A stretch of DNA of 64,000 nucleotides from Brachionus koreanus (Eukaryota; Rotifera; Eurotatoria; Ploima; Brachionidae): contig PJRA01000005.1 in assembly GCA_016987375.1 (NCBI GenBank), positions 3,551,916 to 3,615,915 on the forward strand, in the 5' to 3' direction. The notes under the pieces were generated by a model. That model searched no databases. It was given only the letters and a program-made list of their open reading frames with translations, and was not told the DNA's origin. Shown here piece by piece: positions 13,684-50,536 of the stretch. Within the stretch, counting starts at the first letter, position 1, and every line of letters begins with the position of its first letter. A program made the translations under genes and the position numbers.

Positions 13684-13955
13684 GTTTCAATTGAAATTTG
13701 AATCATAAAATTTTGTTTTTTAATAGGACTTGACTTCCAGAGTTTAAATTTTTGTCTTAATTTAATGTAATCTAATGAGATTGAATTTTAAAAAGTAAAA
13801 TAATGATAATTGAAAGATTTATAAATATCTTTTTTTTTTAAAGATGCACTTTCTTTAATTATGTTATGTAATTAAATTTTGCGTTTTTTAAAAGGTAGCA
13901 TATAAAAAATGATAAGTTTTTAATAAAAAATTTACGAAACCATCAAAAAAGATTT
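13684..13955 (+). repeat. Dispersed repeat copy A (inverted relative to 24955-25222)
   Basis: About 270 bp that closely match the reverse complement of 24955-25222, from GTTTCAATTGAAATTTGAATC through to ACGAAACCATCAAAAAAGATTT. Copy B continues into a transposase-like relic, so copy A is probably the truncated or non-autonomous 5' part of the same transposon. A TAGTGTTGGGAATC sequence lies just upstream at about 13641. Confidence 0.75.
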
Positions 13956-23380: not shown

Positions 23381-26300
23381 ATGTTCTTTCTTTTTTTACT
23401 CTTATTCCAAGTGGTGCTTTGTCAAATAGGTAAGAAGCCTCTTTGATGAGAGCTTAATTTTAAATTTATTTGAAATAAGAAAAGCCTTCAATAACAGATC
23501 TGCAGCAAATAGACGAAGATACCGTATTGATTAAATGGATCTATAAAAATCTTGAAACATCCGGTAATCAAAGACTCAGGGTTCAGTTTAGCAATGACGA
23601 TTTTCACTATGATATAAACGAATGGCCAGGTAACAATTTTTTTTTAGGTATTGTGAAATTCATAAAAAATTTGAAATTTTATAACTTTTGTTTCAATGGT
23701 CAAAAATTTGTTCTGCAGATGAAACAAAGTGAAACAACTGTTGTTTCATCTACTACGGAAAAATCCAAATTCTATTCATATAAATTGCGATCTGCAAAAC
23801 AAATTTTTTACCATTTTTTAATTTTTGTATCGCAAATGTTGTATGTAATTTCATATTGCCTTTTTTTTATTTTGAATAAAAATTTTAGTAATTTTTGTTC
23901 TTTTAGTTAACTTTGAAAAAGTAAATGTAACATCTGGTGAAGTTATAAAGTCTATTAGTGTCAAGTCAAATTTTGATTGTATATTGCAATGTATAAAAAT
24001 TTTCGAGTGCAAACAGCTTGTTTATAAGTATGATTTAACAAATAACTGCTATTTAAAAAACAATTTTGGAAATGAAACTGATTTGAGATGGGAGCATGAA
24101 GATTTTTTTAAAATATTAGGTAATGTTATATTTGGTTTAAAATAAGTAAAAATTTAATGAATTAGCATCAGGTTTTTTATTAATTTGCAGAAATATATTT
24201 AAATAATACAACAAATTTTTAAATTTAACCCTTCTATTTTTTTTTTAGGAAATCATTCATTTATTTTTTAGACAAAAAATAAATAAATATAAATCCCAAG
24301 AATTATTAATTTATTTCATATAATATCTCTTAATAACGGTTTAGGAGACTAAAAAATGGCACAAAATTAATTTTATCAAAAAAAAAATTTTATTTAACAA
24401 AGGCTTTAATTTTTTTTTAATTACAACTGAGCTCTCCTATTTTGAAAAAATTATATCAGTTAAGGTATTGAACTCCATGAGTTCAATATTAAAAATTTAT
24501 CAATAAAAATTTTAATATTTAAAATTTAAAATTAAAATGAATTAAAATTTTCATAAATAAATTGCTCGACGTATGATATCGAGCCTAGAGCAAACAGTCT
24601 TGGCATGGTCTTGCACAACCTAGGTTAGCATTTAAATGAGGTCTCTGGTGTTTTTTATACTTTTTGATGTTTGTATACTTCTTTAAAATCTTTCCGATAT
24701 AGGTATTGTGGCGATTAAACTTTCTACCCATCTTTCTTTCCGAACGACCCGATTTATGATTGAAATAAGCTTTTAGTTTTAGTCACCATTAGTTTCGTCG
24801 CTATTTTAGAAGGCTTACAAATTCCTTTATTTCTCTTGAAAGTTTTATCTCTTTCTATAATATCTAGTCAACGATAAATAGTCTGTTTTTTGTATCCAAG
24901 ACCAGTGAATCGCCTTATAACTTCAAATTTTGGTTACTTTTTACTAATTTGTACAAATCTTTTTTGATGGTTTCGTAAATTTTTTATTAAAAACTTATTT
25001 TTTTTTATATACAACCTTTTAAAAAAACGCAAAATTTAATTACATAACATAATTAAAGAAAGTGCATCTTTAAAAAAAAAAGATATTTATAAATCTTTCA
25101 ATTATCATTATTTTACTTTTTAAAATTCAATCTCATTAGATTACATTAAATTAAGACAAAAATTTAAAGTCAAGTCCTATTAAAAACCAAATTTTATGAT
25201 TCAAATTTCAATTGAAATTTTGAATTAAAGTCTAAAAATATTAAATTCATGTAAAATCGAAAGTTTGAATGTTGATAATTTTAAAATTGGTCTATTTATT
25301 CTAATCAATGTATCTCTTGATACCCAGGGGGAGAATTAAAGTAATGTGTGGCTTGTAAATGCTTTAGTTTATTTTAAAAGCATGTTTTATATATGATTTT
25401 GACCTGTATTTATATATAAGCCCGAAATTGGAGGAGGTTAAGGATTACAGAATTTATCAATTTTGAATAAAAAATTAGATTAAATTTCAATTTTCCAATA
25501 TTTCTTAAATTTTATTTAAAAAGTTACTGAATTGAAACAAAATTTTACAAAAAAATGTGTTAAAAGTGAAAAAGTTAGCTATGATTTTTATGATAAAATG
25601 TTTTTTTTTTAAAAAAGCCTAATCTGAAATTACTTTTTATTGTGAATAAATAGTGCAAAAACGAAATTTTGACATTTTTTTAAATATTTTATTAATTAGA
25701 TTTAAAAAAAAAAATTTTCACTTAAAATTTATGAATTTAGATCACAAAAGAGAAATCATTTTAAAAAAATTTCCGTATAATGATTTATACAAATTTCGAG
25801 TGATGGTTTTTGATGAAATTGAAAAAAAATGGAGCCAATTTTCGAATTCTTCACATCAACACTTGGACACTCGAATTAGTTAATCATATTTTTCATTAAT
25901 AAATTGCAAACATTCTAACATTTTTTATTAGATCTATTTGTTAGGGTTGAAAGAGTAGGAACCGAGAGTCTTAAAGTAAAATGGGAACAGTTGGGAACTT
26001 TTAAAAATTATCCGATCAGTCGATATAATATTCAAACTTCTGTCAATGAAGAACCATTTAATGACAATTATGACTTCAATTTTTTGTTTTCCGGTATTTA
26101 TTACCAATTCTAATACGAATATATAAATTTTTTTTTCAGGAAAAGTGTTTGAAAACTTTATTGAAATATCATTGCCACCCTCAATAGGAATTTTCAAATC
26201 AGAGAAAGAATGTTTTAGAGAATGTTCAAAAAAATTTGACTGCATTAGATATGCATTCAACATTACCCAAGGAAATTGTCATCTAATAAATAAATTTGAG

Positions 26301-29300
26301 CCTGTGAACGCGAATAAAGTTCCTACAGTAGTCTCAAAAACAATGATATGTAAAATTTATTAAAATCGAAAAGAAAAAAAATTCATATTTTAATTAATTT
26401 AGCTTCATCGAACCAGTTTATTCTTGAAAATTTAAAACTTTTTTCAAATTATAAAATCAAAATAAATTTTAAAACTCCTTATGGTAGTCAAGGATCATCT
26501 AATTTGGTTACATATGTTTTAAGTAAAATTGAAAAAATTGTTAACTTAAAAATAATAGTTAGTTCAAAGCTAAGTTAAAGCCTCTATTGAGAATACGAGC
26601 AGAAAACAAAGATTTTACAGTTATTTTAAATTGGACAGTAGTGGAACCAGTCAAACTCAGAACTTATCTAATCCATTCTTCAATCAATGAATCAAGCTAT
26701 TTTGATCAATATTTTGAAAGCAATTTACATGACTTTGAAGACCCAAACCAATTGATTTATCATCTTAATTTGAACGATTGTTTCTATAAATGTGCTCTGA
26801 ACAAAAAATGTTTGGCTTTTACTTGGAACCGCTTTGAAAATAGTTGCTTTTTAAAATCTAGCAAAAACAAGACTCGTTTATGTGCATCAAATTCCTTTTG
26901 TTCTTCTATTATGGGTATGCAAAAGAAAAGTTTTAATTAGACTAACTTTTATTTATTTTTTCTAGATTACAACAGTCTTATTAGAATCAAGAACCATTTT
27001 GTGAACACAAAATATTGCTACATGATAAGTGTTTTGAGCAATTTTGGATTTGTTGGTGAAAAATCAAATAAAGTTTGTTTTAAATGTAATTTTTTTTCAA
27101 ACATTTTCATTTCAGATAATTTTCATAACTAAAATACGGATATTTTGTTTTAGAGATAAAAACGGACCCATAAGAACACTAAAGTATTTTTTTGTCGCAA
27201 TTAGTAATTGTTGGATCTTAATTGTGGAAGCTTCAAAAATTTTACATTAAGCAGGTATAGGGTACAAAGCCGTTGCATATTTCGGCCAAAGGGTATGGGT
27301 CTGTTTTTTTCGGTAAAAATAAATATCTGTATTTTATAGAAATATTCGATTTAACAATTCAAAAAATAAAAATTCTCTTAGAAGTTTTTAAAAGTTTTCT
27401 TTAAGACTCAAAGGTCGTAGGGTTCTTTTGAAATCCTTTTGTTACTTCCTTTATTTGTTTTTTATTCAATAAATTTAATTAAATAATTCAAAAAATATAA
27501 TTTTTATCAGTCATATCCAGACTTGTGCAAAAGTCAAAAAAAATAGTATTTTTAAAGTCTTTTGAAATCAAGTCAAGTCTTTTGACTTGACTTGACTTTT
27601 GGTATCCAAGAAAAAATCAGATTGTTTTTAAAGTAATTTTATTTAATTTTTAAAAAAAAAATTTTAACTAAATTTTTAAAAGCTTAAAATTGCTATATAA
27701 AAGCGTTGTTGATTCTAAATTTTGAAATAAATGATTTTTTCTTGGATACCAAAAGTCAAGTCAAGTCAAAAGACTTTTTTTCAAAAAAAAAAATTTAAAG
27801 TCAAGTCAAAAGACTTGACTTGACTTTAACTTTATGACTTTTGAACAACTCTGGTCATATCTTAAACCAAAAATATTATAAAATTTATTTTAATTACATA
27901 AAATTTATTTATTTTCATTGAAAAAAAAGTAAAAGAACGAGTAAAATAAATGATTCAAAACATCCCTCCGGCCTTCGAGTGTTAAGTGATAATTTTTTTC
28001 TCAAAAAAATTATATGAAGATTGAATTATTGTTCTAAAATAAATTTTTTTTGAAAAATTTTAAATAAGCTTTGTTTATCATTAATCTCCCATAAATCTAA
28101 AATTTAAAAATTTGAAATACCGGAGAATAATTAAGGTGGCAAAAATTTTAGAATTTCTTATTTAAATTTCTATTAACTAATAATTAATGTTTAAATAAAA
28201 GACTTTAATTTTTTTCCGAATTAGTTCAATCTTCTATCATTTTTATTAAAATTTAAAAAAATAATCTTATGCTTCCAAGATGATAAAAATAATAATAAAA
28301 AATTTAAGGGAACGTTACAGTCACTTTAAAATCTGATAACAGATTAAAAGAAGGATCTCGTACAACCTTATCATGTAACATAAGCGGAATAAGCATAGAG
28401 CAGTTGGATAATTTGAAATGGATTAAAAACTCAAAAGTATTATCTGAAGCTAAGTTTGCACACAGTCCTTTTCAACTTGACAGATTGAACTTAGAACTAT
28501 TTTCTCTAAATTATTCTAAAGACAATGGAGTTTATTTCTGTGAGATAAAACTTTCAAATGGACAAGTTCTTATAAGTAACAAGTTGGATTTAAAAGTAGA
28601 GTTCCCACCACTCATAAAATTACAAAATGAATCAGACTTTTTTGCTATAATGCAAGGTGATCCATTCAATATTAGCTGCTTCTCAGTCGGCTATCCTATA
28701 CCGGATATTAAATTTACCAAAAATGGAAATAAAATAAAGGATTTTATTGAAATTTATGATTATGAAAATTTTCGCAAAACTATTTATCTAAATGTAATAA
28801 AAAGCACTTTTAATTTACACAATGGAACTTACTCGTGTTATTTGGATAAATCGATAAATAAAAATTTTGATTTATTTATCAAATTTGGTCCTTTATTTGT
28901 TAACGAGTCTAGTGAAATTCATGTAAACGAGTCGGATGATGTATCAATCGAGTGTTCAATGATCAAACATCCGATGCCTAGTTTAAAATGGAAAGAAAAA
29001 AACTTTAAAAAAGAACTTGATTATCAATTGAACTTTTCTAATCAAACATTTGCCACATCGATTCTCAATATCAAAAATGCAAGCAGATACGACATGGACG
29101 AATATTTTTGTTATGATGAAAATTTTTCACATATGACAAAAAAGTACATGCTTTATGTGCATTGTAAGAATTTAATTTTTTTTCTAAATTATTGAAATTA
29201 AAAGAAAAATTTTTTAGTTATGCCATTTTTAAAAGATGAAAATCAAACTGAAGAATACCATTTAGATCATAAATCATCTATTGAGCTAAGTTGTGTTTCT

Positions 29301-32300
29301 GAAGGCTTCCCGGTACCAAACATCGAGTGGAAGTTCGATACCTTTAATGTAGACTTAAATCCCAGTCAAGTTTCTAACTCTGCATACAATCAGACATCAA
29401 TACTTGTTTTAGAAAACTTGGACAAAAATGATCAAGGAAACTATTCTTGCGGATTAATGGCTGATTATATGCATAAAAAATACTTTCGTATTTTCATAAA
29501 AAGTTTTGATATTTAACTGTATTTTATTTATTTTATCTAAAATATATTTTAAAGCTAAACCATCAAGTCCTGTTATAATACAGGCTGAAGAATTAGACAA
29601 TGGTATGATTAGAATTATTTGGTTCATAGATGAAATTGGTAGTTCGGGTTTATCTAGTGCTATTTTCGAATGGGCTCTAAATTTTGAAAAATCTCCTATT
29701 CAAAAGCTCACATGTAAGGCATTTTTAATCAATACTTTTAGGAAATTTTCCAATTTTTTTTATTACACTTTGCCAAATTTGCTATTAGCAACTAGGTCTC
29801 ATTTAAGCTTTCACTAAAGTTTATATAATTTTCTTAAGTGAACGGATACAAACAAATAACTTTATTAAAAGCTTATTATAGACTTTTATTTTCAAAACAG
29901 CTAAGTTTATATACTTATTAAATTAATATGTAGATTTCATTTTTTTTTAATTTTAACAAAGTCTCTTTGAGAGAATATAAGAAAAACCCCAGTGACAAAT
30001 TTTAATTTTTTAATGAAAATTTAACTGATAACATTAATTTATCTCAAATTTTATCGATTAGATTTTTTTAGCTTTTTTTTTTCTAATTGTTAATAAAAGC
30101 AATATTTATTTTATTAAAAGTGACTCTTGGATTTGAATAGAAAAATTTAAAATTTTTTCCATTTTTGAAGAATTATTTGAATGTTAAGGTATTTAAAATT
30201 AATTATTGGAAAATTACTTTTTAAATTTTGTATTTTTTGTTATTTAATCTAATTTAAAATTAAAATTTTGATATTAAAATACTAATAACCACAGGAAATT
30301 TCCTGTAAACTTTTATTCAGCTCAATAAAAGCAGCGTTCAAGAGTCGGCTTGACTGTTAATTTTTTAAATTCGTAATTTTATTGTTCTTTAAGTGAATGA
30401 AAGAGGTTTTTTTTTGATTCTTTAAAGCATAATTTATAATATTTTTCAAACACATTTTATCGAATTAGCTATCACAATCAAACATGAGCATTTAAATTAC
30501 CATTAAGCATAAAAAAAGATGCTTTTTAAAGCACAGATTTTTTAATTAAAATTTTTCTATATGAATAAAAAAGTTAATAATCTATGAAATTTTTGAAAGG
30601 CAGTTTTTATCAAAATAAAAAAGGAAATTAGTGTTTTTGTTAAAAATTTCTTTAGTTTGTTAAAAAATGCAGTTTGTTTTTTCAGAAACTTTTTACCTTT
30701 TTTTATTTAATCAAAATGTTCAATACAACTGAATTAATTTTAAAAAAAAATTTTATTGTTATTTTTAATTTACTCCTAAAAATAATTTTAAAAAAAAAGA
30801 CGAGTCGAAAATTAACTTCAATTTTTTTTTTATTTAATTTAAAAAAAAATTTAAGAAACAAATTTTTTTCGGTGCTAAAAATAAACCAAAATTATACATA
30901 TCGATCCAAGATGCTGATTTTTAAGAATAATACAATTTCAATTCTATAAATTTTATCCATATTAAATTCTAATTTATAAATTTGAATTCATGCTTCTATA
31001 AACTAGTCTTTGAAATAAAAAAATTGTACATTAAAGTCAAATTTTTACATAGAAATTTTGAGAAATTTCTTTTTAATTAGTCAAATTTTACATTAATTTA
31101 AGTATTGTTCTTAAATATTTTCACTCTGTAATTTAATGATTTAATCACAAGAGAGTATATTATATTTTTTAGTGAAAAATTTAGACTTTGCAAGAAAATG
31201 TGTCTTTAAGCAATTTAGACTAGCAAATAATTTATAGCTGACTTGATCTAAATTTTAAACTTGTCCTAGAGTTTTTATTATTACCTTTAGAACCAAGGGA
31301 GTAAAAAACTATTAGAAATTTTATTATTGTATTAGTTATTCCTTTGCAAATAAATCCTTTTTTTAACATTTATTAAATTCAGTGTGTTAAGTATATCATG
31401 CGAAGATCTATACAAAGCAACTTGTTCAGAAAAAATGTTCAAATAAGATCCTACTTTTAAAACAACACGATGCTAGATTAATAATCCGAAAATTTAAAAA
31501 GACTTATTCTCTGTTTTAATACTTGTAAATTCAAAGATTTATCTTTAATTTCATAAACTTATGATCAAAGCACAATATGAAAAAAAAAAATTTTTAGAAT
31601 TTAAAATTTCATTTAAATTTTTTTACAAAAACGAGCAATTTTCTAAAGTTTACTTCAATAAAATATTAATCGTATTTCTCAATTATAATTGATGCTGCTT
31701 AAAATTGGTCAATAATACGCATTCAAGATTCTGCCTCAAGGCAAATTTACAGGTCATTAAACAAATTTTAACCAAGTTGATTTTTATGTCTTTAAACAGT
31801 AAAAAGGAAATAATTGAATATCATTTAAGTCTTTATTCTAATTTTTTTAGTTATATTGACACATCTCTTGAGAGTGAATGAATAAATTTTATTTTAAAAG
31901 CAAATACTTAAAACGATTATGAAAAATTGTTTATTAAGATACTTTGTTCAATAAGTAGCACGAAAAATGCTTAGTTAAATATGTCTGAATATTTTTTAAA
32001 ATTAAATTTCTATTACGAATTTTTTCAAATAAAAATTAAAAAAAAAAAGCTTACATTTACAAAAATAGCGCTTTTGGATCGATATTATAATTAAAGATTT
32101 TAGAGACAATTTATTTAGATTAAAGACTCGTTATAAAGGCCTGGTGTAAACTAAGTCGGAAACATAAATTGTCAAGACTAGAAATTAATTTTTTCCTTAA
32201 AATATAAAATATTTATAGCAAAAAAAAAGTATTTGTGTATTTGTTTATTTTATGTAGCTATTTAATCGATTAAAAAAACGAGTGTTATGCTTTAAACAGA

Positions 32301-35300
32301 AAAATCAAGCAGATATTTTTCTGGGAAAAAAGAAAAAAAATTTTTTTCCTTTTTAACTACTTCATTTATTATTGACAAGAAATTAAATTTTATTTTTCTC
32401 TTCAAAAAAAAAACATCGTCAACAACAACAATTTAACTCTGTGTTGCTTAATTGCCAAAATTGGTTTTGTCAAATCTAATAAAAACACAAGCCATTTAAA
32501 AAATTTTTTCTTATCTCATTACTATTTGCCATGTAAGAAGATTCTAGTCAAATTTTTTTTAATTTACAGACTAGCTCACTTTAAATTTCCTCTATATTAA
32601 TTGCTTTTTAAACTTAATTTAACAATTGCAAACATTTTGCTCAATTTTAATTTATTGTCTAGTCTTTTTAATAAATAGTTTGAGCACTCTTGAGAGAAAA
32701 AAATTCTTCAAAATAAAAAAGACATGTCATAATTTAGTTTTTTTATTAAATTCGATTAGATAAATCGAACTAATTGTATTAAATTTTTAAACCTTTTTAA
32801 AGCTATTAAAGCTTTAATCGCATTTTAGAACAAAAATTAGCTTAATCATGAATGATTGTATTATTTATTTCCGAGTGATTGTATTATTTATTTCTGGTAT
32901 GTTTTTAAAAAGGAAAACTTGATATATATTATCTGATGTCAGGTAATCTAAAACTATCAATGTTTATTTCTATGTGCATTTAATTTGTTAAGGAATTTTT
33001 TTAGAACTATTTGAATTAAGTACTGTCGATATTTATTTGACAATTGATGACAGACTTAAGAGGAAGCTGCACTCGAGATCGCTTATCTTGTTACAATTTT
33101 GATTGCCACTGTATTTTCATTACGCTAATTCAAAGTAAATATTGCATAATTTATTAACAATGGATTTTATTTTGTCAAAATTTATATTAAATTTTTTAAA
33201 TAAATATTTTCCTTTGACAAATCAAAATGTTGACTGCTAAATTGGTAACTGTGTCATTTAATTAAAGCAATGTTTGCTTTTTATTTATATCCAAATTTAT
33301 TTTAATATTTTTCTTTTTATTTTTTGAAAAAAAAAAAAATTTTTTAAGAACTAAAATTATTTTTTAAAAAACTAAATTTTTTTTTTAGTTAAATTTTCAA
33401 AAACTATATCTAAAGAAAAAAAGCGCTACGAAATTAATTTGAAATTAGCAATTCCAAATAATCATTTAATTCGATTATCGGTGAAAAATTCAATAGGTCA
33501 AAGCGAGCCCAGTGAGCCAAAGCATATTACAAAAAAGCTGCTTAAAAATCCAAGTTTTAAAATAGCTAATTTTAAAACAAGTTTAGTCCTCGTAGTCGTT
33601 TTAGTTGTTGTATTTTCAATAGTAGGATTATTAATTGTAATTTTAGTCAAGTTACGACGTGATTTACACAGGAAAAACCATCTAAATCACGAAAGCCAAT
33701 GCAAACTAAATGATACAATCGAAAGCCGATCATTGCAGCTTATTGAAAGTGCGTGCACCAACTCAAGCTCGGCCCCCAAAATGAGTGATAGACGACAAGA
33801 GACTAGCTCACCGCATCCCAGCAGGAGTCATTCTGGACCCAATTTTGGAATTTTTTCCAAAATAACAAGTCTCAAGCGTAGAAACGCTGAAAAAACTAAA
33901 AAACAAACTTTTTTAGACTCATCTTTAAATGATGTTAATTTAATTGACAAGCACATTAATTTGCCAATAGCTTTGGAAAACTTAACTAGCCAGTTGGATG
34001 TGTTGGATGATAAATTTGCCAAGACTTATTCAAAAGAGTCATTGCTTAAACGATTTACCCAGGATTTTGAATCGCTGGATAAAGATATGCACTTTGAGTT
34101 TTGTGTACTATAAATTTTATATTGATGGCAAGTTGATTTTTTTTTTGTCTAGCAAATACATTTATCGCTAATTTCATTTTAAAATATTTAAGTAATTAAT
34201 GAATTTTGTTGTTTTTTTTCTATTAATAATTAATTAAAATAATATAACTTGAAGAAAAAACTTCTGAGCCACGTAATTTTATTTTTCTCAGTCATTAGAT
34301 AAAAAAAGTTATATAAATAAGTTATTTTTTTTAAATGTGCAATCATTTGTGAATCGTTGAGTTGAGAATATAATTAAAAAATTTTAAATCTCATATTTTT
34401 CAATTTATTTTAAAGAGCACTTGAAATCTGAACTTAAGTGAATAGAAAAAAATTTTTTTTGGCACATTATTGTGATTTAAAAGTAAATAAGTGAACAAAA
34501 AAAATTAAACTTAATTATTTTATTTGAAATAAACAGTTGAAATTCGATTTAATAAAATGAAAAACTTTTTGGCCTTTAAAGTTGAATTTTATGAATAAAC
34601 TAATAGATAATATAGACATTTTTTTTAATATTTTTTAGAGATTTATCAATTTTTATTGAATTTATAGCATAACATACAAAGACGTTCCTTGTCAAAATTA
34701 AAAAAGTAAACAAATAAATCCACGTGTAAAGAATAAGTAAATATATGCAAATATTTATCTTTTTCAGTTCTTCACATTTCATTTCCATTCATTTCGAAAT
34801 ATTCATTATTAAAAAACCATAATCTTATGTCTTTTGTCATTAAAACTCACAGCCACTTATCCACTGATTCCCATAACTTAACTACATCCACCAGAAGTTT
34901 TAGAAAATATAACTAGTTCAGTTAAGCTCGGTAATTTTATTTTGCGATTTAATTATTCTAATATATTTAGTCTAACTAGCTAAGAGCTTACTTTTGGGAA
35001 TTTTATCAATAAAAATAACATTCTATAAAGGTCCCAACATAAACCCTTGTTGTATAGCTCTCAATTTAATATTTAATATTTATTTAAGTATTTTAGTTTT
35101 TTTTTTAAATGAATCAAATTAAACAACCGATATTAAAAAAAAATAGAAATGTGAATGTTAAAAGCATATTCTTAAGAATCATATTTTTTTAAAGGGATAT
35201 AAGTTCAAAAATTCATGATTAAGAAAATATAATTTTTTTTTAATTTTTAAATCAGACAGCTTAAAAAATATCAACTTGCTTTTTTTTTTATTTCTACTAA

Positions 35301-38300
35301 GAATTTATTTTATCCAGGAAATAAAGAACCCGATAAACAAGTCTTTTCATGATTCTTTAAAAATTCAAAATGAACGCAAATCGCGATACAAACACGTATA
35401 TCCATGTATACTTAAAAAAAAAATTTTTAAAAAAAATTATCTTGATTGATTTTTTTTAAAAAGATGATGATAATAGAGTAAAACTAAATTTAGTGCCTGG
35501 TAGACCAGACTCGGATTTTATAAATGCTAGCTATATTGAAGGACACAATCAATCGAAGCGTTTCATTGCTGCTCAAGGTCCTACCAAAGATACAACAGAG
35601 GACTTTTTGCGAATGATAGTCGAAAAAAATGTAAAAGTTATTGTTATGCTGACCAAAATATACGAAGGAAATCCTCCGATTGTATTTAAAAAAATTTAAT
35701 AAAAAAAATTTTATTTTTTTTTTAACTTTTAGCTCAAGTGCTGGCCTTATTGGAATGACAAAAATTTAATTAAATTTGGCTTAAGCTCATGTGAAGTTAA
35801 GTCTATTGAGAGTAAACTTTTTTATGAAAAAAGAAAATTAAAAATTAGATATAAAGTAAGATATTGGCTTTTTTTTGCCTTATACTAAAGCTCAATATTA
35901 TTTTTTTATGTTGTTTTTTATGTTCATTTTCAATATCATGAAGAAAATTTGAATATCAATTTGAATATTCAGATTGTAAGTTTATAGAATCTTAGAAATA
36001 TTAATCTCTGCAAGCCAATTCAAATATCAAACTCTTTAAGGTTTCCAAAATCCAGATTGTTTTTAAATATTTATAGATATATATTAGATATATATATATA
36101 TATATATATATATCTATTTGTAGTTTAACAAATCATCATAGACAAATTGTAAATGTAATGTTTGATAAAGTCGGTTTAAATAAAACTTATAACTGAGACA
36201 TGTTATGAGGTATTTAACTATGAGCCTAATGAATTAGTCAAGGTGAGCAATAATCAAACAATACCCAGTCACAAAAAAAAGATTATTAGTCGATGACCAT
36301 TTCATCTTACTTCTACGATGAAAATATTATTTTATTTAAAAAAAAAACTTTTATTTTTTAAATAATTTTAAGGATTTTAATTAATACAGAGTCTAAAAGC
36401 AAAGTATTTTCACTTAATTAAAATTTTTACAATTTTGTTTAAGACGAAAATCAATACACGTTTTTCTCTGTAGAGAGACTTTATGCTATAATTCTCTTAA
36501 TAGTTATCGTCAAATAATCAATTTTTAAAATTACAAAGTAGTCCTATTACTAGTCTTAAATAGATTTTAATTCAAAGAACAAGCTATTAATTCAATAAAA
36601 TAATATTTTTTAAAGTCCAGATTACTGGTTTCATGTGTAATTCAATTTTTAAAATATTAGCTTCATATTTTTTGGTTAATAAATATTTATGAAATGAATG
36701 AAACGATTTGATTTTAGCTAGTAAACTAATTCACTTTATAATTTTTTTTTCTCATTTTTACAGTTCTTGACTGGGTAAAATTAATTATATAAAAAAATTA
36801 ATTATTTATTTTTTTATTTTGTATTAACTGATTAAAAACTAAAAATATTTTGTAAAATTTATTAAAGAGTCTTTTTTTTTTATATTAAAATGTATATCAA
36901 TTAATTGAATAATTGATTTTAAAAATACAGTATCATTGATATTCAGCTTTAGTAGACCTTTTTTTTTAGTTTAAAAAAATTTTGTTTTAAAATTTTGAAG
37001 GACATGCAATGTCTAATAGATCATTATTATTACAAAGAATGGCCGGATCGATCTAGCCCATTGGAATCTCAGTCAATAATTGAGCTAATCGATAGTCTTG
37101 TAAAAAATTTAGACTCACAACCTATTTTGGTTCATTGCAGGTATTGTAGTACGCTTCATAAATGGGATAAAATCATCTTAAAGTTTAATTGTGTACTAAA
37201 GTGCTGGTATAGGACGCACGGGAACCTTTGTTGCCTTGTTCAACTTGATGAGCATGATGAAAGATATCAACACAATCAGCCCAAATAGAACTGTGTATGA
37301 GATGCGTCGCCAGAGAGCTTATTCTGTTCAAAACTGGGTACTAATATCTAATATTGATTTGAATCAAATTGAAAATTTTTAATTTAAAGGAGCAATATAA
37401 ATTCATTCACCAGGCCTTGCTTGAATGGTTAATTTTTTGCAATAGCACAATAAATATCAACGACAGGGATACAATAAAAGCAATAATATCAAATAAGAAT
37501 AATTTACAAAATGAATTCTCGGAAATTTTGCAGCTTAAAGACACATTTAAGCTTAGGACTTATTCATTTATGAATATAATTAAATGTTCTTCCATTTACG
37601 AGCTTTTAAAAAGAGAGATCGAATACAACCCATCCAATTCTACAGAAAATTTTGAAAATATTAAATTACTTGATTTTTTGTTGCTAAAGGTATTTGATAA
37701 AATTAAAGTTTGTTTAAATTTATAATCTCTTTAGACACCGCCGTTCAATCTAAATTTGGTTCTCTCAGCCGAACCAACAAGCAAAAATATTAATTTGTAT
37801 CTCACAGCAATTTTTAGAATAAAGCCAGAGATAATTGTTTCAATAAGTCCCAAAGTAATTTAATTATTTTATTTTCTATTTTTTTACAAAAAATTTTTAT
37901 CATTAAGGAAAATTCATATTTTTCTGTTTTAAATGAGACAAGCATTGATAGAAACTTAGTTTGTGGAATTGTTGTTTTGTGTCAAGAGATTAATTCAAAT
38001 GATTTTTTCAAAGAATTCGAACTTGAATTAATAGACACTAAGGTAAATTTTGTGTGGCAATTAAAAAAAATTGATTTTTTCTTTAATTTTAATTTTTTCA
38101 AATGATAAATAATAAGTTAAAAAAAACATCTGTTAAACAAAAGAGTTAGTTTACAGTCAATTTTGCTATAAAAATAAGCAACATGATCAAAATTTGTGAA
38201 ACCTATTGAAAATTCTAAAATAAAAAAAAGCTTAATTCTAAACTAAACTTGACCGTAGAATATTAACTATTATTATTATTATTATTAATATTAATTCAAA

Positions 38301-39705
38301 TTATGAAGAAATTAAAACAGCTGAAACAAAATTTTTCTTTAAATATTTTTTAATTAGTGAACATTGAAACGATCATTCAAAATACATAGTTATTCATCTT
38401 TGAAAATAACGTAATTATCCGAATTTAATGACATGTAAAAAATGAACATTGATTTAAAAAAAAAACCGAATTCAACATTTATGACATGTCTTAAAAAATG
38501 AAAAAATGATTTTTTTGAAAAAAACTTCTGACTTTAGCGACTTTTAGATTTATATCAAAATTGACTTTCCATTTTTTACAGTATCTCATAAAGGCTAAAC
38601 CAAATTTTTAATTTTTTTTAATAATTTCACAATTTTGAATAACATGTCACTAAAATAGAGTACTCTATTTTAAAGACATTAAAGACATTTTTGATCAATT
38701 CGGATAATTACGTTATCTCTGAATTAGTTAAATAATTTTATTATCAAAACTCAAAAATTTAAAAACAAGAATATATAAATACTAAGCCAATGATCATTCG
38801 CATGATGGAGTTATTAAACTGAATTTTTTCATTATTTATGCTTCATGTGTAAATTAAAAAAGCCATGATTCAAAAAATCAGCTCCCATAAATCACTAAAT
38901 AATTTTAAATTTTGTTTTCTTTTTAATCAATTAAATAAACCAGAAAAAATATTCTTCCATTATTTGTTATTGAGCTACAAAAAGAAAACTCCTAAAAAAT
39001 AAAAAAAAGATCTATAATAATTTAATCTATAGTTTTATTTTAAATTCAAAAATTTCTCTTAGAGCAAAAATAAATCAATAAAAGTACGCTATTTTACTAC
39101 AGAAAATTTATGGTCGAATGACAGGAATTCAATTAATAATTTTTCTGATAATTTATACGCGATAAATGAGATAAAATCGAATGAATTAGATGCTAATCAA
39201 CAAGATAATGAATCAATAAATTCACAAGTTTTTCCAGTATCAAGCAATGAATCGATTATTAAATTATTTGACGCTTTGGGCGAATACATGAGCACCAAAG
39301 GTGATTTTTTGACTTCATCTTCCACTGGTTTGTCCAAACAAAAAAACAATGTTTTTCTCATACAAGACGAGTGAGATTTTTTTCAATATTTAACGCAATC
39401 TTAAATTTTTAATTAAATTAATTTTAAAATAAAAAAGAAAAAAATTAAATGAAAGCATCGAAAAGCACGGTCTATTCATTAGCCTTATGTATCTCTATTT
39501 CAATATTAAGATAAAAAATGAGTTTAACATTGTGCAAATTGTTCGTCTATTACGCAAAACATATCCAAAACTTATGAACAAAAAGGTGAGCACTTTAATC
39601 TCAAAGCTTAATTGTATTATTTACAAAAAAAAAATTTTTTTTTTCAAGGAAAACTACAATTATTTGTACAATTTTTGCTCGTCGGATAGTTTCATAGCCA
39701 ATTAG
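23381..39705 (+). CDS. Receptor-type protein tyrosine phosphatase with FN3-embedded PAN domains, Ig domains and a dead second PTP domain
   Basis: 24 exons join in frame to about 1739 aa: 23381-23429, 23498-23629, 23907-24119, 25741-25878, 25932-26093, 26140-26349, 26403-26522, 26570-26914, 26966-27085, 28321-29163, 29218-29502, 29555-29713, 33389-34104, 35318-35405, 35464-35681, 35733-35855, 37001-37140, 37202-37337, 37390-37689, 37735-37854, 37908-38042, 39063-39370, 39483-39585, 39649-39705. Order: signal peptide (MFFLFLLLFQVVLCQ); three FN3 domains each split by a PAN domain; four Ig domains; FN3; membrane helix (about 990-1013); active PTP domain D1; degenerate D2. Extracellular introns are all phase 1. 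It should act at the cell surface, removing phosphate from tyrosines in response to adhesion or ligand. Exon 4 could instead start at 25654, which is also in phase; 25741 gives an FN3 half of normal size. No orthologue can be named: LAR-type receptors have Ig before FN3 and no PAN. Confidence 0.88.
24560..24990 (-). pseudogene. Transposase relic, probably Tc1/mariner-like
   Basis: Minus-strand translation gives ETIKKDLYKLVKSNQ early on. After several stops it gives KSGRSERKMGRKFNRHNTYI, then GKILKKYTNIKKYKKHQRPH, and a following CARPCQDC. A basic linker, a helix-turn-helix ending in a KKYTNIK-type motif and a proline is typical of IS630/Tc1/mariner DNA-binding regions. The frame is broken and the DDE/D part is not seen. 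It sits inside intron 3 of the receptor phosphatase. Confidence 0.55.
24955..25222 (-). repeat. Dispersed repeat copy B (inverted copy of 13684-13955)
   Basis: Reverse-complement match to copy A over about 265 bp. It lies in intron 3 of the receptor phosphatase, immediately 5' (on the minus strand) of a transposase-like relic, so it looks like the 5' end of that element. Confidence 0.75.
27518..27853. mobile_element. hAT-type MITE with 8-bp target duplication, copy 1
   Basis: Termini CAGACTTGTGCAAAAGTC and GACTTTTGAACAACTCTG form an imperfect inverted repeat flanked by a perfect 8-bp duplication GTCATATC (27510-27517 and 27854-27861). Internally, a second inverted pair (GGTATCCAAGAAAAAATC and its complement) and many short TCAAGTC/GACTTGA units give strong fold-back potential. 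It lies in the 1.2-kb intron between exons 9 and 10 of the receptor phosphatase. There is no coding sequence. Confidence 0.88.
28321..29502 (+). other. Four immunoglobulin domains (receptor phosphatase exons 10-11)
   Basis: Exon 10 encodes three Ig domains in one uninterrupted 843-bp exon. Their Cys-Trp-Cys marks are TTLSCNISG / LKWIKN / GVYFCEI, FNISCFSVGYPIPDIKF / GTYSCYL, and VSIECSMIKHPMPSLKW / EYFCYDE. Exon 11 adds a fourth (IELSCVSEGFPVPNIEWKF / GNYSCGL). The D-x-G-x-Y-x-C variants NGVYFC, NGTYSC and QGNYSC are typical of I-set domains. Many N-x-S/T sites suggest glycosylation. Confidence 0.88.
29714..33388. other. 3.7-kb intron 12 of the receptor phosphatase
   Basis: This splits the membrane-proximal FN3 domain at the same place, and in the same phase 1, as the PAN-interrupted ones. 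I see no PAN exon, ORF or repeat inside it, only AT-rich sequence. Confidence 0.55.
35464..37689 (+). other. Catalytic PTP domain D1 of the receptor phosphatase (exons 14-19)
   Basis: All hallmarks are present. The substrate loop is KSRYKHVYPYDDNRVKL (junction of exons 14-15), followed by DSDFINASYIEG, AAQGPTKDTTEDFLRM, KCWPYW, the general-acid loop EWPD (residues D-R-S-S-P follow instead of the usual H-G-V-P), and the signature HCSAGIGRTG (Cys about residue 1353, split by intron 17). The Q-loop is QNWEQYKFIHQALLEW. The domain should be catalytically active; only the residues right after the WPD aspartate are unusual. Confidence 0.9.
36082..36120. repeat. (AT)n microsatellite
   Basis: A run of TATATATA flanked by near-palindromic ATAGATATATATT / ATATCTAT, in intron 16 of the receptor phosphatase. 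Confidence 0.85.
37735..39705 (+). other. Degenerate PTP domain D2 (exons 20-24)
   Basis: After D1 a second, shortened PTP-like module follows. Its end is recognisable (EFNIVQIVRLLRKTYPKLM, then ENYNYLYNF, matching the family's V-x-LR-x-x-RP-x-M and Q-x-Y-x-F-x-Y). The position expected to carry the VHCxxGxxR loop reads VFLIQDEDLMYLYF, with no Cys or Arg signature; no WPD and no KNRY are found. About 65 low-complexity Asn/Ser/Asp-rich residues are inserted in exon 22. It can only be a pseudophosphatase or scaffold. Confidence 0.78.
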
Positions 39706-39829
39706 CCGCTCAATTTAATTTATTTTAAATAATTTTTTTTTGCATTTAATTTCTTGAATAAATTTAAAAAAATAATTCAATCTTTAATTTGAAAGACCTA
39801 AGTTGAATTAACCGGCTCCTAGACCAACC

Positions 39830-47770: not shown

Positions 47771-47889
47771 AAATTTTTTTCTTTCAATGATGTTTTTATT
47801 TTGCAAAAATTTTCATTGCTTTCTTTTAGTTATGTAAAATATCAAATCAATAAATAAAGATTTTTAAGATTAGATTTGTTTTTTCAAGT

Positions 47890-48044
47890 TTACATTAAAT
47901 TTTTAAAAAAATCTCACTCGTCTTGCATGAGAAAAACTTGTTTTTTTTTGTTTAGACAAACCATTGGAAGATGAAGTCAACAAATCACCTTTGGTGATCA
48001 TGTATTTGCCCAAAGCGTCGAATAATTTAAAAATCGATTCAATG
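47890..48044 (-). repeat. Inverted partial copy of receptor-phosphatase exon 22
   Basis: Minus-strand reading gives IFKLFDALGKYMITKGDLLT and SSSNGLSKQKK, matching exon 22 (39240-39395; IIKLFDALGEYMSTKGDFLT, SSSTGLSKQKN) including the GACGAGTGAG splice-donor context. It lies beside a direct copy of the following exons at 48355-48745. Confidence 0.85.
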
Positions 48045-48345
48045 CTTGATATCGAAAAAATTTTGAAAGCTTGTGGAGGATTCTCGAGATACAATGAGCT
48101 GAGATATTGTCGTTTCAAAAGACTACGATGGCTTGACATGCAGTAAGAATGGAAGAAAAAAAGATACCATGACCAACCCTTCAATGGAAAACTCAAGAGC
48201 GACGTAAGTTGGGAAGACCAGCAGAAACATCCACATAGGAGCTCATCGAAATGGGAATAACATGGGGAGTAACACGGCTAAAAGCAAAAGATCAAATTGA
48301 GTGGAAATCAAATGTAATGATCCCATCCTCCACAGAGAGTTAATA
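48045..48345 (+). pseudogene. LINE ORF2 C-terminal fragment (RTE/craniofin-like tail)
   Basis: Plus strand: ILKACGGFSRYNELRYCRFK followed by RLRWLDM. After frameshifts come GRPAETST and ELIEMGITWGVTRLKAKDQI then EWKSNVM. This is the RLRWLGHV-x-RM ... GRP-x-x-x-W ... W-x-x-x-VA tail of many LINE polymerases. It sits exactly between the inverted and direct parts of the copied phosphatase segment. Confidence 0.72.
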
Positions 48346-48354
48346 AGAAAATGA

Positions 48355-48745
48355 AAAAATAGCAATCTTAAATTTTTATTTAAATTAATTTAAAAATAAA
48401 AAAGAAAAAAATTAAATGAAAGCATCGAAAAGCACGGTCTATTCATTAGCCTTATGTATCTCTATTTCAATATTAAGATAAAAAATGAGTTTAACATTGT
48501 GCAAATTGTTCGTCTATTACGCAAAACATATCCAAAACTTATGAACAAAAAGGTGAGCACTTTAATCTCAAAGCTTAATTGTATTATTTACAAAAAAAAA
48601 ATTTTTTTTTCAAGGAAAACTACAATTATTTGTACAATTTTTGCTCGTCGGATAGTTTCATAGCCAATTAGCCGCTCAATTTAATTTATTTTAAATAATT
48701 TTTTTTTGCATTTAATTTCTTAAATAAACTTTAAAAAAACATTTA
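48355..48745 (+). pseudogene. Direct partial copy of receptor-phosphatase exons 23-24 with introns
   Basis: Nearly identical to 39395-39775, including the upstream intron end, exon 23 (copy 48450-48552), the 63-bp intron and exon 24 (copy about 48615-48671) to its TAG. Introns are retained, so it arose by DNA duplication and not by retroposition. It lacks the rest of the gene and is presumably a pseudogene, unless it is used as an alternative 3' end. Confidence 0.88.
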
Positions 48746-50536
48746 ATCTTTAATCTGTTTGAATTCGATTCTAAAAATAAATTTTTAAACCATCAAAATT
48801 AATTCTCTCTTTAGTTTTAAATTAGGGCTTTAAAGAAATCGTTGAGCAAATAAGATAAACTGACGGATTCATACGGACCTTAAATCTATGTCAATTAGTT
48901 TTTTTCAACTCAAGATTTAAATTACTTTTGGGTTATTTCAATTAGACAGGTTAATAGATAAGAAGCTTTCGATGATAGATATTTCTCAATTTTTAAAGGT
49001 TTCTATACTCAAATGCCAAAATTGTTTGACCACTTAATTTTCAATCTTAACACCAAAGACATTTAACTGCAATTACATCGATATCTAAGAAAAAAGTGAA
49101 TAATTGAACTGGCTTTTATGACTAGCATTTGATCAATGATGATCTTGCTGGAATACGCAGTTTTTGATATTATGCAAATTTAATTTGAAAAATTAAAGAT
49201 CTATTCAAAGCATCTAAATTTAGGATTCTATTTGATATCTGAACACAATTATTTGACGTACTGGAGCTAATGCTGATTTTAAATTCACCTTCAAATAAAT
49301 GATATCATAAAATTTAATAAATTTCAATGATACACTTAACATTAAAACTGAGACTATTTTGTGTAGGAATCTTGTAAAGGTTTTGCGTTGTCGACAGAGT
49401 TGTTTTTAGCTAATATTTAGGTAAATATTGAAACAGATTTTTGATAAAAATTTAAGATTATTTAACTGAAATATAAAAAATGTGATGTTAGTCACAATAA
49501 AGATTGATTTGATGAAATTTTTTAGTACAGGATCAAAACGAATGATGAATTTAAATTTAACTTTAGCTAATGAATATGTCAAATAGCATCGTGGAGATAA
49601 AGACGGAAAAGAGAGAATGGAGAAGCGATCATTTTTTTCAATTTCGAAATTACCTTCAATTTTAAATTAGGATTTATGTAAAAAAAAATCGATAAAACAC
49701 TACTTCATTTGATTTTTTCCAATTCAAGGATTTAGCACATTAGTCATTATTTTCCTATTCATATTCCATTTTTTCGTCATTCATAAAACAAATTTAAACT
49801 CTAAAGATTAAAAATTTCAAATGACTTTTCATCAATCAGTCAAAGTTAGATTATTTAAAAATAATTTAAATTAGATATAATCGGCTTAAATATATATTCG
49901 AATAGGTTAGCTTAGAAATATATATGATGAATATGAATTTTAAATTTTGTATATAAATTCAAGTTGAATATTAAAGAAAATTTCGATATTTTTTTTTCAA
50001 AATTTAATTTTAGGTTTCGTTTTAGATTTCTTTAAAATCTAGATTTTGAAATTATTATCTAAAGCTTTTAACCAGTTATTGTTTTATTAGGATGACTAAT
50101 ATTCTTAGAAAATATTTTATATTTTTTTAACACTGACAGATTTGGCCTGAAAAGGAACTTTTTTCTCATTTGTTGGCATCGTTTTGAATTTCATTTTTTA
50201 TTTTTTTAAATTATTAGAATATTAATTTTGAATTTAAAGGTGAACTAGTAACTTTTTTTAATGATTGTTTTTTTTTTTTTTTCTAAAAACAAAAAGCTAA
50301 ATTGATAGAAAACAAATAGACCAGTATGATCTGAAATGAATAAACTTAAAATGTAGAATCACGAATCGATGTCTCAATTTTCTTTTCTTTTTACTTGTCC
50401 TTCAATCTATCACTTGAGCAAATATTTACCATTGTATTAAATTAATTCAATTATTTTTTTAAGGCAAATAGAATATCTCTAAAGAAATATTGAATTTTTT
50501 TTGCTATTTAAAAAAAAAAGTTATAATTCACATAAA
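48746..50536. other. Intergenic, nothing recognised
   Basis: About 1.8 kb of AT-rich sequence upstream of the tetraspanin gene. No gene or repeat is recognised. Confidence 0.4.

Follow-up and report, generated by a model that had tools for sequence, protein, structure and literature searches.

Receptor tyrosine phosphatases (RPTPs) of the LAR type carry their immunoglobulin (Ig) domains outermost and their fibronectin type III (FN3) domains next to the membrane, followed inside the cell by an active phosphatase domain, D1, and a pseudophosphatase domain, D2. PAN domains, in factor XI, plasma kallikrein and HGF, are arranged as beads on a string and are not known to lie inside another domain. 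Here we describe a gene in a 64,000-nucleotide stretch of contig PJRA01000005.1 (positions 3,551,916 to 3,615,915) of the rotifer Brachionus koreanus, hereafter the window. Its product is very probably a type I RPTP with a head of three composite modules, in each of which a PAN sits inside an FN3 domain; these FN3(PAN) modules most likely arose by exon shuffling, and the PANs are the likely ligand-contacting parts. With LAR-type (R2A) RPTPs such as PTPRD, PTPRS and LAR, the window protein has in common an ectodomain of Ig and FN3 domains, one transmembrane (TM) helix and the pair of D1 and D2, but its FN3 modules are outermost, with the Ig domains after them, and three of its FN3s carry a PAN. 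Where the R2A subfamily has N-terminal Ig domains and then FN3 domains up to the membrane, the order here is three FN3(PAN), four Ig and one FN3.

An interrupted FN3 domain is also found in another receptor. The insert domain of FnIII-2 in the insulin receptor holds the alpha/beta cleavage site and is described as not crystallisable and presumably disordered (PMC2577065). In the window protein the insert has a different sequence, being a PAN, occurs three times in a row and belongs to a phosphatase instead of a receptor kinase.

The gene lies on the + strand at 23381-39705. Its 24-exon model was placed by eye and by script, without transcripts, and with GT-AG sites chosen to keep the frame; it has GT-AG at every junction and encodes 1758 residues in an open frame. 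The domain order is signal peptide, three units of FN3 first half (FN3a), PAN and FN3 second half (FN3b), four Ig domains, one FN3, a TM helix, phosphatase (PTP) domain D1 and a degenerate D2. The exons of the signal peptide and the head are as follows, with Pfam scores in bits.

23381..23429, + strand: exon 1, signal peptide (by eye), ending in phase 1; aligned to the N-terminus of the Brachionus calyciflorus protein P0001
23498..23629, + strand: exon 2, first half of the unit 1 FN3, phase 1-1; joined to the second half, HH probability 90.7%
23907..24119, + strand: exon 3, PAN 1, phase 1-1, 213 nt; PAN_1 26.6 bits
25741..25878, + strand: exon 4, second half of the unit 1 FN3, phase 1-1; donor GTTAAT
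25932..26093, + strand: exon 5, first half of the unit 2 FN3, phase 1-1
26140..26349, + strand: exon 6, PAN 2, phase 1-1, 210 nt; PAN_1 24.4 bits
26403..26522, + strand: exon 7, second half of the unit 2 FN3, phase 1-1; joined unit 2, fn3 26.5 bits; model of the ortholog's unit
26570..26914, + strand: exon 8, first half of the unit 3 FN3 and PAN 3, phase 1-1; PAN_1 30.2 bits; model of the ortholog's unit
26966..27085, + strand: exon 9, second half of the predicted unit 3 FN3, phase 1-1; assigned from the exon model and the structure model of the ortholog's unit, no FN3 signal in the sequence

The interval 23498-27085, in which an earlier note on this DNA had placed the nested domains, runs exactly from the first base of FN3a in unit 1 to the last base of FN3b in unit 3. 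Introns 1-12, which lead from the signal peptide to the juxtamembrane exon, are without exception in phase 1, and each of the 11 exons that they enclose has a length divisible by 3. The note's view that every exon edge is in phase 1 holds for these introns, but in unit 3 FN3a and PAN lie together in exon 26570-26914, the intron between them having been either lost or never present. PAN 1 and PAN 2 have phase-1 introns on both sides, as class 1-1 modules do, and PAN 3 on its 3' side only. At the exon 4 junction with its GTTAAT donor, the protein of the ortholog, P0001, matches across.

Each PAN, searched alone against Pfam PAN_1 (PF00024), scores above the curated cut-off of 21.4 bits. When a profile was made of the units, only its middle part matched factor XI, plasma kallikrein and HGF, and its end gave weak matches to gp130 FN3 domains (E 0.035 to 0.23). 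Both by profile and by Pfam PAN_1, the insert is like the PANs of the PAN/apple proteins, from which it differs in being nested.

The sequence evidence for FN3 comes from joining the two halves across the PAN. Joined unit 2 matches Pfam fn3 (PF00041, profile length 84) at 26.5 bits over profile positions 6-79, above the cut-off of 25 bits, whereas in the unjoined window protein the first half of unit 2 alone matches, at 18.8 bits, below the cut-off; for B. calyciflorus, the unjoined protein comes to 29.6 bits when its pieces are added up, none of which passes E 0.01 by itself. Because joined units 1, 3 and 4, the last being the PAN-less FN3 next to the membrane, gave no Pfam fn3 match, we also used a local FN3 profile, built from the RPTP homologs among the hits, and an HH comparison. 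Against the local profile, joined units 1, 2 and 3 scored 18.1, 32.1 and 1.4 bits in the window protein and 19.8, 45.5 and 5.8 bits in B. calyciflorus. In both species units 1 and 2 scored higher joined than as either half alone, in swapped order (4.9, 13.8, 14.2, 21.4) or as the best shuffle (13.7 bits; 1097 scored of 1100). HH probabilities against FN3 were 90.7, 96.1, 1.5 and 19.0% for units 1-4 in native order, and 35.1, 76.6, 1.5 and 10.8% in swapped order, over at most half the columns; controls gave 2.8% (Ig4), 0.3% (D2) and 0.2% (PAN2). Units 1 and 2 are FN3 domains by these sequence comparisons, and unit 3 is predicted to be one from structural modelling. The second half of unit 3 (26966-27085) contains two cysteines that are conserved in B. 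calyciflorus; they may form an additional disulfide, which might partly account for the missing recognition by FN3 profiles.

Structure prediction was made on P0001 of B. calyciflorus, not on the window's own protein; its units 2 and 3 were folded with a 13-row alignment. In both units the predicted FN3 closes round the PAN, with 82-92 residues aligned to FN3 domains across it, and strands from both sides of the PAN pair into one FN3 that matches the FN3 structures of LAR and PTPRD. The structural match lists contain no PAN fold; they are filled by FN3 rows, and hence this is not evidence against a PAN fold. Of the three nested PANs that the earlier note had read from the sequence, the nesting stands for units 1 and 2 by sequence and for units 2 and 3 by model, while unit 3 gave no FN3 signal in its sequence. 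The profile search of joined halves that it had suggested succeeded for unit 2 with Pfam and for units 1 and 2 with the local profile and HH, failed for unit 3 and was weak for unit 4; the structure prediction that it had also suggested closes the FN3 round the PAN for units 2 and 3 of P0001.

The best protein match is P0001 itself, a predicted protein of 1800 residues that is 53% identical over residues 1-1000, is colinear with the window protein to the last residue and includes all three PANs. The one other protein match at E <= 1, P0002 from the snail Bulinus (E 1e-23, 31% covered), was set aside as a PAN-bearing relative, PAN being absent among its listed domains. Between the two rotifers FN3a, PAN and FN3b are 59, 41 and 50% identical in unit 1, 67, 30 and 70% in unit 2, and 81, 65 and 90% in unit 3; for the two Ig exons the values are 48 and 49%. 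The alignment of the three units has a single gap column, which falls in PAN 1, and the six FN3 halves have none; a seven-residue gap lies at the signal-peptide border. The FN3 frame is more tightly conserved than the PAN insert.

The rest of the gene completes the receptor and is made up of the following parts.

28309..29163, + strand: exon 10, three Ig domains; Pfam Ig_3 and I-set
29218..29502, + strand: exon 11, fourth Ig domain
29555..29713, + strand: exon 12, first half of the putative PAN-less membrane-proximal FN3, followed by a phase-1 intron; weak full-length FN3 match
33389..34104, + strand: exon 13, second half of the putative PAN-less FN3, TM helix (about 33572-33651, by eye) and juxtamembrane region
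35318..37425, + strand: exons 14-18 and the start of exon 19, PTP domain D1
37426..39705, + strand: rest of exon 19 to exon 24, degenerate PTP-like D2; stop at 39703-39705

Across exons 10 and 11, Ig_3 and I-set match four stretches of the protein. D1 matches Pfam Y_phosphatase at 231.7 bits over profile positions 1-234 of 234 and contains WPD at 37040-37048 and HCSAGIGRTG at 37133-37140 joined to 37202 onward. With a signal peptide, extracellular domains, one TM helix and a PTP domain with WPD and HCX5R (signal peptide, TM helix and catalytic motifs judged by eye), the protein has the features of a receptor tyrosine phosphatase, as the earlier note had proposed; no kinase match was found by Pfam in the scanned residues 1-1033 and 1169-1758. 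D2 has no P-loop cysteine motif and no separate Pfam match at E 0.01, and its label was given by eye from its position and C-terminal pattern. Its exons 19-21 and 23 keep 64-89% identity to B. calyciflorus, and exon 22 keeps 47%; by its sequence, D2 may be a functional pseudophosphatase.

Among the best 120 of 4142 proteins with PTP-domain matches, PAN_1 appears, in the domain column, in P0001 only, in agreement with the suggestion that the architecture is new for RPTPs. The modules do recur outside the phosphatases. The architecture, which the earlier note had advised looking for in related genomes, is conserved in B. calyciflorus and recurs in a second gene family. In the same genome a gene on the minus strand of C13:340500-348000 (L034:1151-5687) encodes three FN3(PAN) modules, recognised by eye, in the order signal peptide, FN3(PAN), Ig, FN3(PAN), Ig, Ig, FN3(PAN), Ig, Ig, TM and a short tail. 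Its FN3a/PAN borders have phase-1 introns in all three units and its PAN/FN3b border in unit 2 only, and its PAN 1 is itself interrupted by a phase-2 intron; over both genes a phase-1 intron marks five of the six FN3a/PAN borders and four of the six PAN/FN3b borders. Its relatives are P0122 of B. calyciflorus (55%) and P0123 (38%). The contig of P0123 is 4263 nt long for 1290 residues and encodes the PANs within a single open protein, which suggests that it is an mRNA assembly with the PANs included. The FN3 evidence in this family is uneven, with HH probabilities of 82.4% for unit 2, 95.1% for unit 3 (second half only) and 36.6% for unit 1 (first half only); the second half of unit 3 reaches 18.3 bits with Pfam fn3, below the cut-off. 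The family is like the window RPTP in its three FN3(PAN) modules with mostly phase-1 borders, but its modules are interleaved with Ig domains, and it has one TM helix, a short tail and no phosphatase match in Pfam. A tail motif, SYNRIEEE(L/I)(M/V)TGVDN, is near-invariant across L034, P0122 and P0123 and, from its sequence, may be a signalling or sorting site.

The genome contains at least 60 PAN matches, 56 of them in the window or examined loci and four elsewhere. In a survey with half-FN3 profiles (threshold 8 bits), strong matches were confined to the window and L034, whose halves had themselves gone into the profiles, and single matches elsewhere reached at most 9.7 bits, against stray matches of 9.9 and 10.4 inside the window stretch. 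The survey is insensitive, since most L034 matches were lost when the L034 halves were removed from the profiles, and there may be further FN3(PAN) genes in this genome. L029 and L030 (C2:2114000-2133999; genes at C2:2117737-2127994) have tandem PANs and a membrane helix by eye, with no FN3 halves seen, and form a separate PAN receptor family of this rotifer.

How such a head could have arisen is best considered from the introns. In metazoans, exon shuffling usually works with symmetric phase 1-1 exons (PMC8001218). The simplest origin is the insertion of a symmetric phase 1-1 PAN exon into a phase-1 intron that would have split an FN3 in mid-domain. The putative PAN-less FN3 has a phase-1 intron, 29714-33388, in a comparable mid-domain place; for this fourth domain the intron noticed earlier is confirmed, but its FN3 signal is weak (HH 19% along its whole length, with a score of 18.2 that becomes 16.7 in swapped order). 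In the head, a whole PAN would interrupt the FN3 sandwich between strands C/C' and E and be displayed from the FN3 as from a frame, the three composite modules standing on the four Ig domains and one ordinary FN3. We infer that the PANs contact a partner on a cell surface or in the matrix, that the stiff FN3 frames would keep them at fixed spacing, and that ligand binding would alter the clustering or placement of the phosphatase, whose D1 has intact catalytic motifs and whose D2 would be a pseudophosphatase.

Several observations weigh against this proposal. Unit 3 has no FN3 signal in its sequence (1.4 and 5.8 bits; HH 1.5%, with a score within its column shuffles), and closure was modelled on the B. 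calyciflorus protein only, for its units 2 and 3. Model confidence is modest: the best mean predicted local distance difference test (pLDDT) values are 71.1 and 72.1, with predicted template modelling (pTM) scores of 0.52 and 0.61, the other four models of each unit go down to mean pLDDT 63.1 and 55.8, and the FN3-PAN linkers of unit 2 lie below pLDDT 50. Of the three PANs in each relative, Pfam PAN_1 finds two in P0001 and in L034 but only one in P0122 and in P0123; the others are assigned from alignment and cysteine pattern. A single origin is not shown by the PAN tree, and the faster divergence of the PANs may reflect relaxed constraint instead of recognition.

That the PANs entered mid-FN3 introns several times independently, the phase-1 intron being a hot spot, and not once with later duplication of the unit, as the earlier note had inferred, is a serious possibility, though we incline against it. 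In a tree of 52 rows and 79 columns, made by a quick method, the 15 nested PANs fall into more than one group, with six label changes and 25 of 49 forks open, as repeated insertion would have it; but PANs are short domains, the approximately unbiased (AU) test does not reject a single group for all 15 (p = 0.197) or for the six RPTP PANs (p = 0.65), and the FN3a of unit 3 in P0001 shares 17 of 32 residues with that of unit 2 in the second family, which favours copying of units. If the PAN exons were alternatively spliced cassettes, PAN 1 and PAN 2 would be absent from many transcripts and the nested form would be one isoform. Their phase 1-1 lengths of 213 and 210 nt would preserve the frame on skipping, and unit 2 without its PAN is the better Pfam fn3 match (26.5 against 18.8 bits). 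Still, PAN 3 could not be skipped alone, as its exon also encodes an FN3 half, the predicted B. calyciflorus protein contains all three PANs, and the paralog P0123, probably an mRNA assembly, carries its PANs in one open protein, so we consider this unlikely. Because the exons of PAN 1 and PAN 2 are symmetric and lie exactly at the mid-FN3 junction, we have also considered that they are splice-controlled cartridges, by whose inclusion the recognition face is switched on an unchanged scaffold; omission would then leave a normal closed FN3, and inclusion would add a binding domain with frame and fold undisturbed. To this we give slightly less weight again.

Two further readings deny the nesting itself. 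The pieces flanking each PAN could be two half-domains or linkers in a row with it, as beads on a string; the missing FN3 profile signal of unit 3 and the modest model confidence would fit, but joined units 1 and 2 give a single full-length FN3 match in native order only, the models join strands before and after the PAN in one FN3, and the six FN3 halves are free of internal gap columns between species, apart from the seven-residue gap at the signal-peptide border. Such an arrangement seems very improbable. Least credible of all is an exon-prediction artefact or a pseudogene: the exons were indeed drawn by eye and script without transcripts, with GT-AG sites chosen to fit, but all 24 are consistent in phase and together keep 1758 codons open, and the ortholog is colinear over the whole length and 53% identical over residues 1-1000. 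On the consistent phases and the colinear ortholog we rejected a pseudogene and a chance reading.

The surroundings of the exons contain several repeats. In the long unit 1 intron between PAN 1 and FN3b, 24955-25217 is a repeat with a 94% inverted copy at 13685-13955, and a short reverse open reading frame at 24585-24782 resembles, by eye, a transposase fragment. The intron that precedes the Ig exon contains a perfect 45-base inverted repeat (27575-27619 and 27732-27776), which has further partial matches near 44.4 kb and the sequence of a small palindromic element. The stretch of the last two exons (39395-39788) has a 98% identical direct copy at 48362-48754, 9 kb downstream, and part of exon 22 (39221-39405) has an 88% inverted copy at 47882-48067; judged by their sequences, these copies are a partial duplication of the gene's 3' end.

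A literature search for PAN domains inside FN3 domains, or for rotifer RPTPs or PANs, returned nothing on the subject, most subscription literature lying outside the search. The architecture is real, conserved and unusual, and new as far as our searches reach, while its parts are ordinary. Its recurrence in the second gene family suggests that the same composite module is used in two families of surface proteins. Shuffling of PAN exons into FN3 domains would make it a repeated case resembling exon shuffling into the interior of a domain, not between domains, with the phase-1 borders still visible, and would provide a testable model for how nested domains arise. For the receptor phosphatases it represents a new type of ectodomain, in an understudied phylum.

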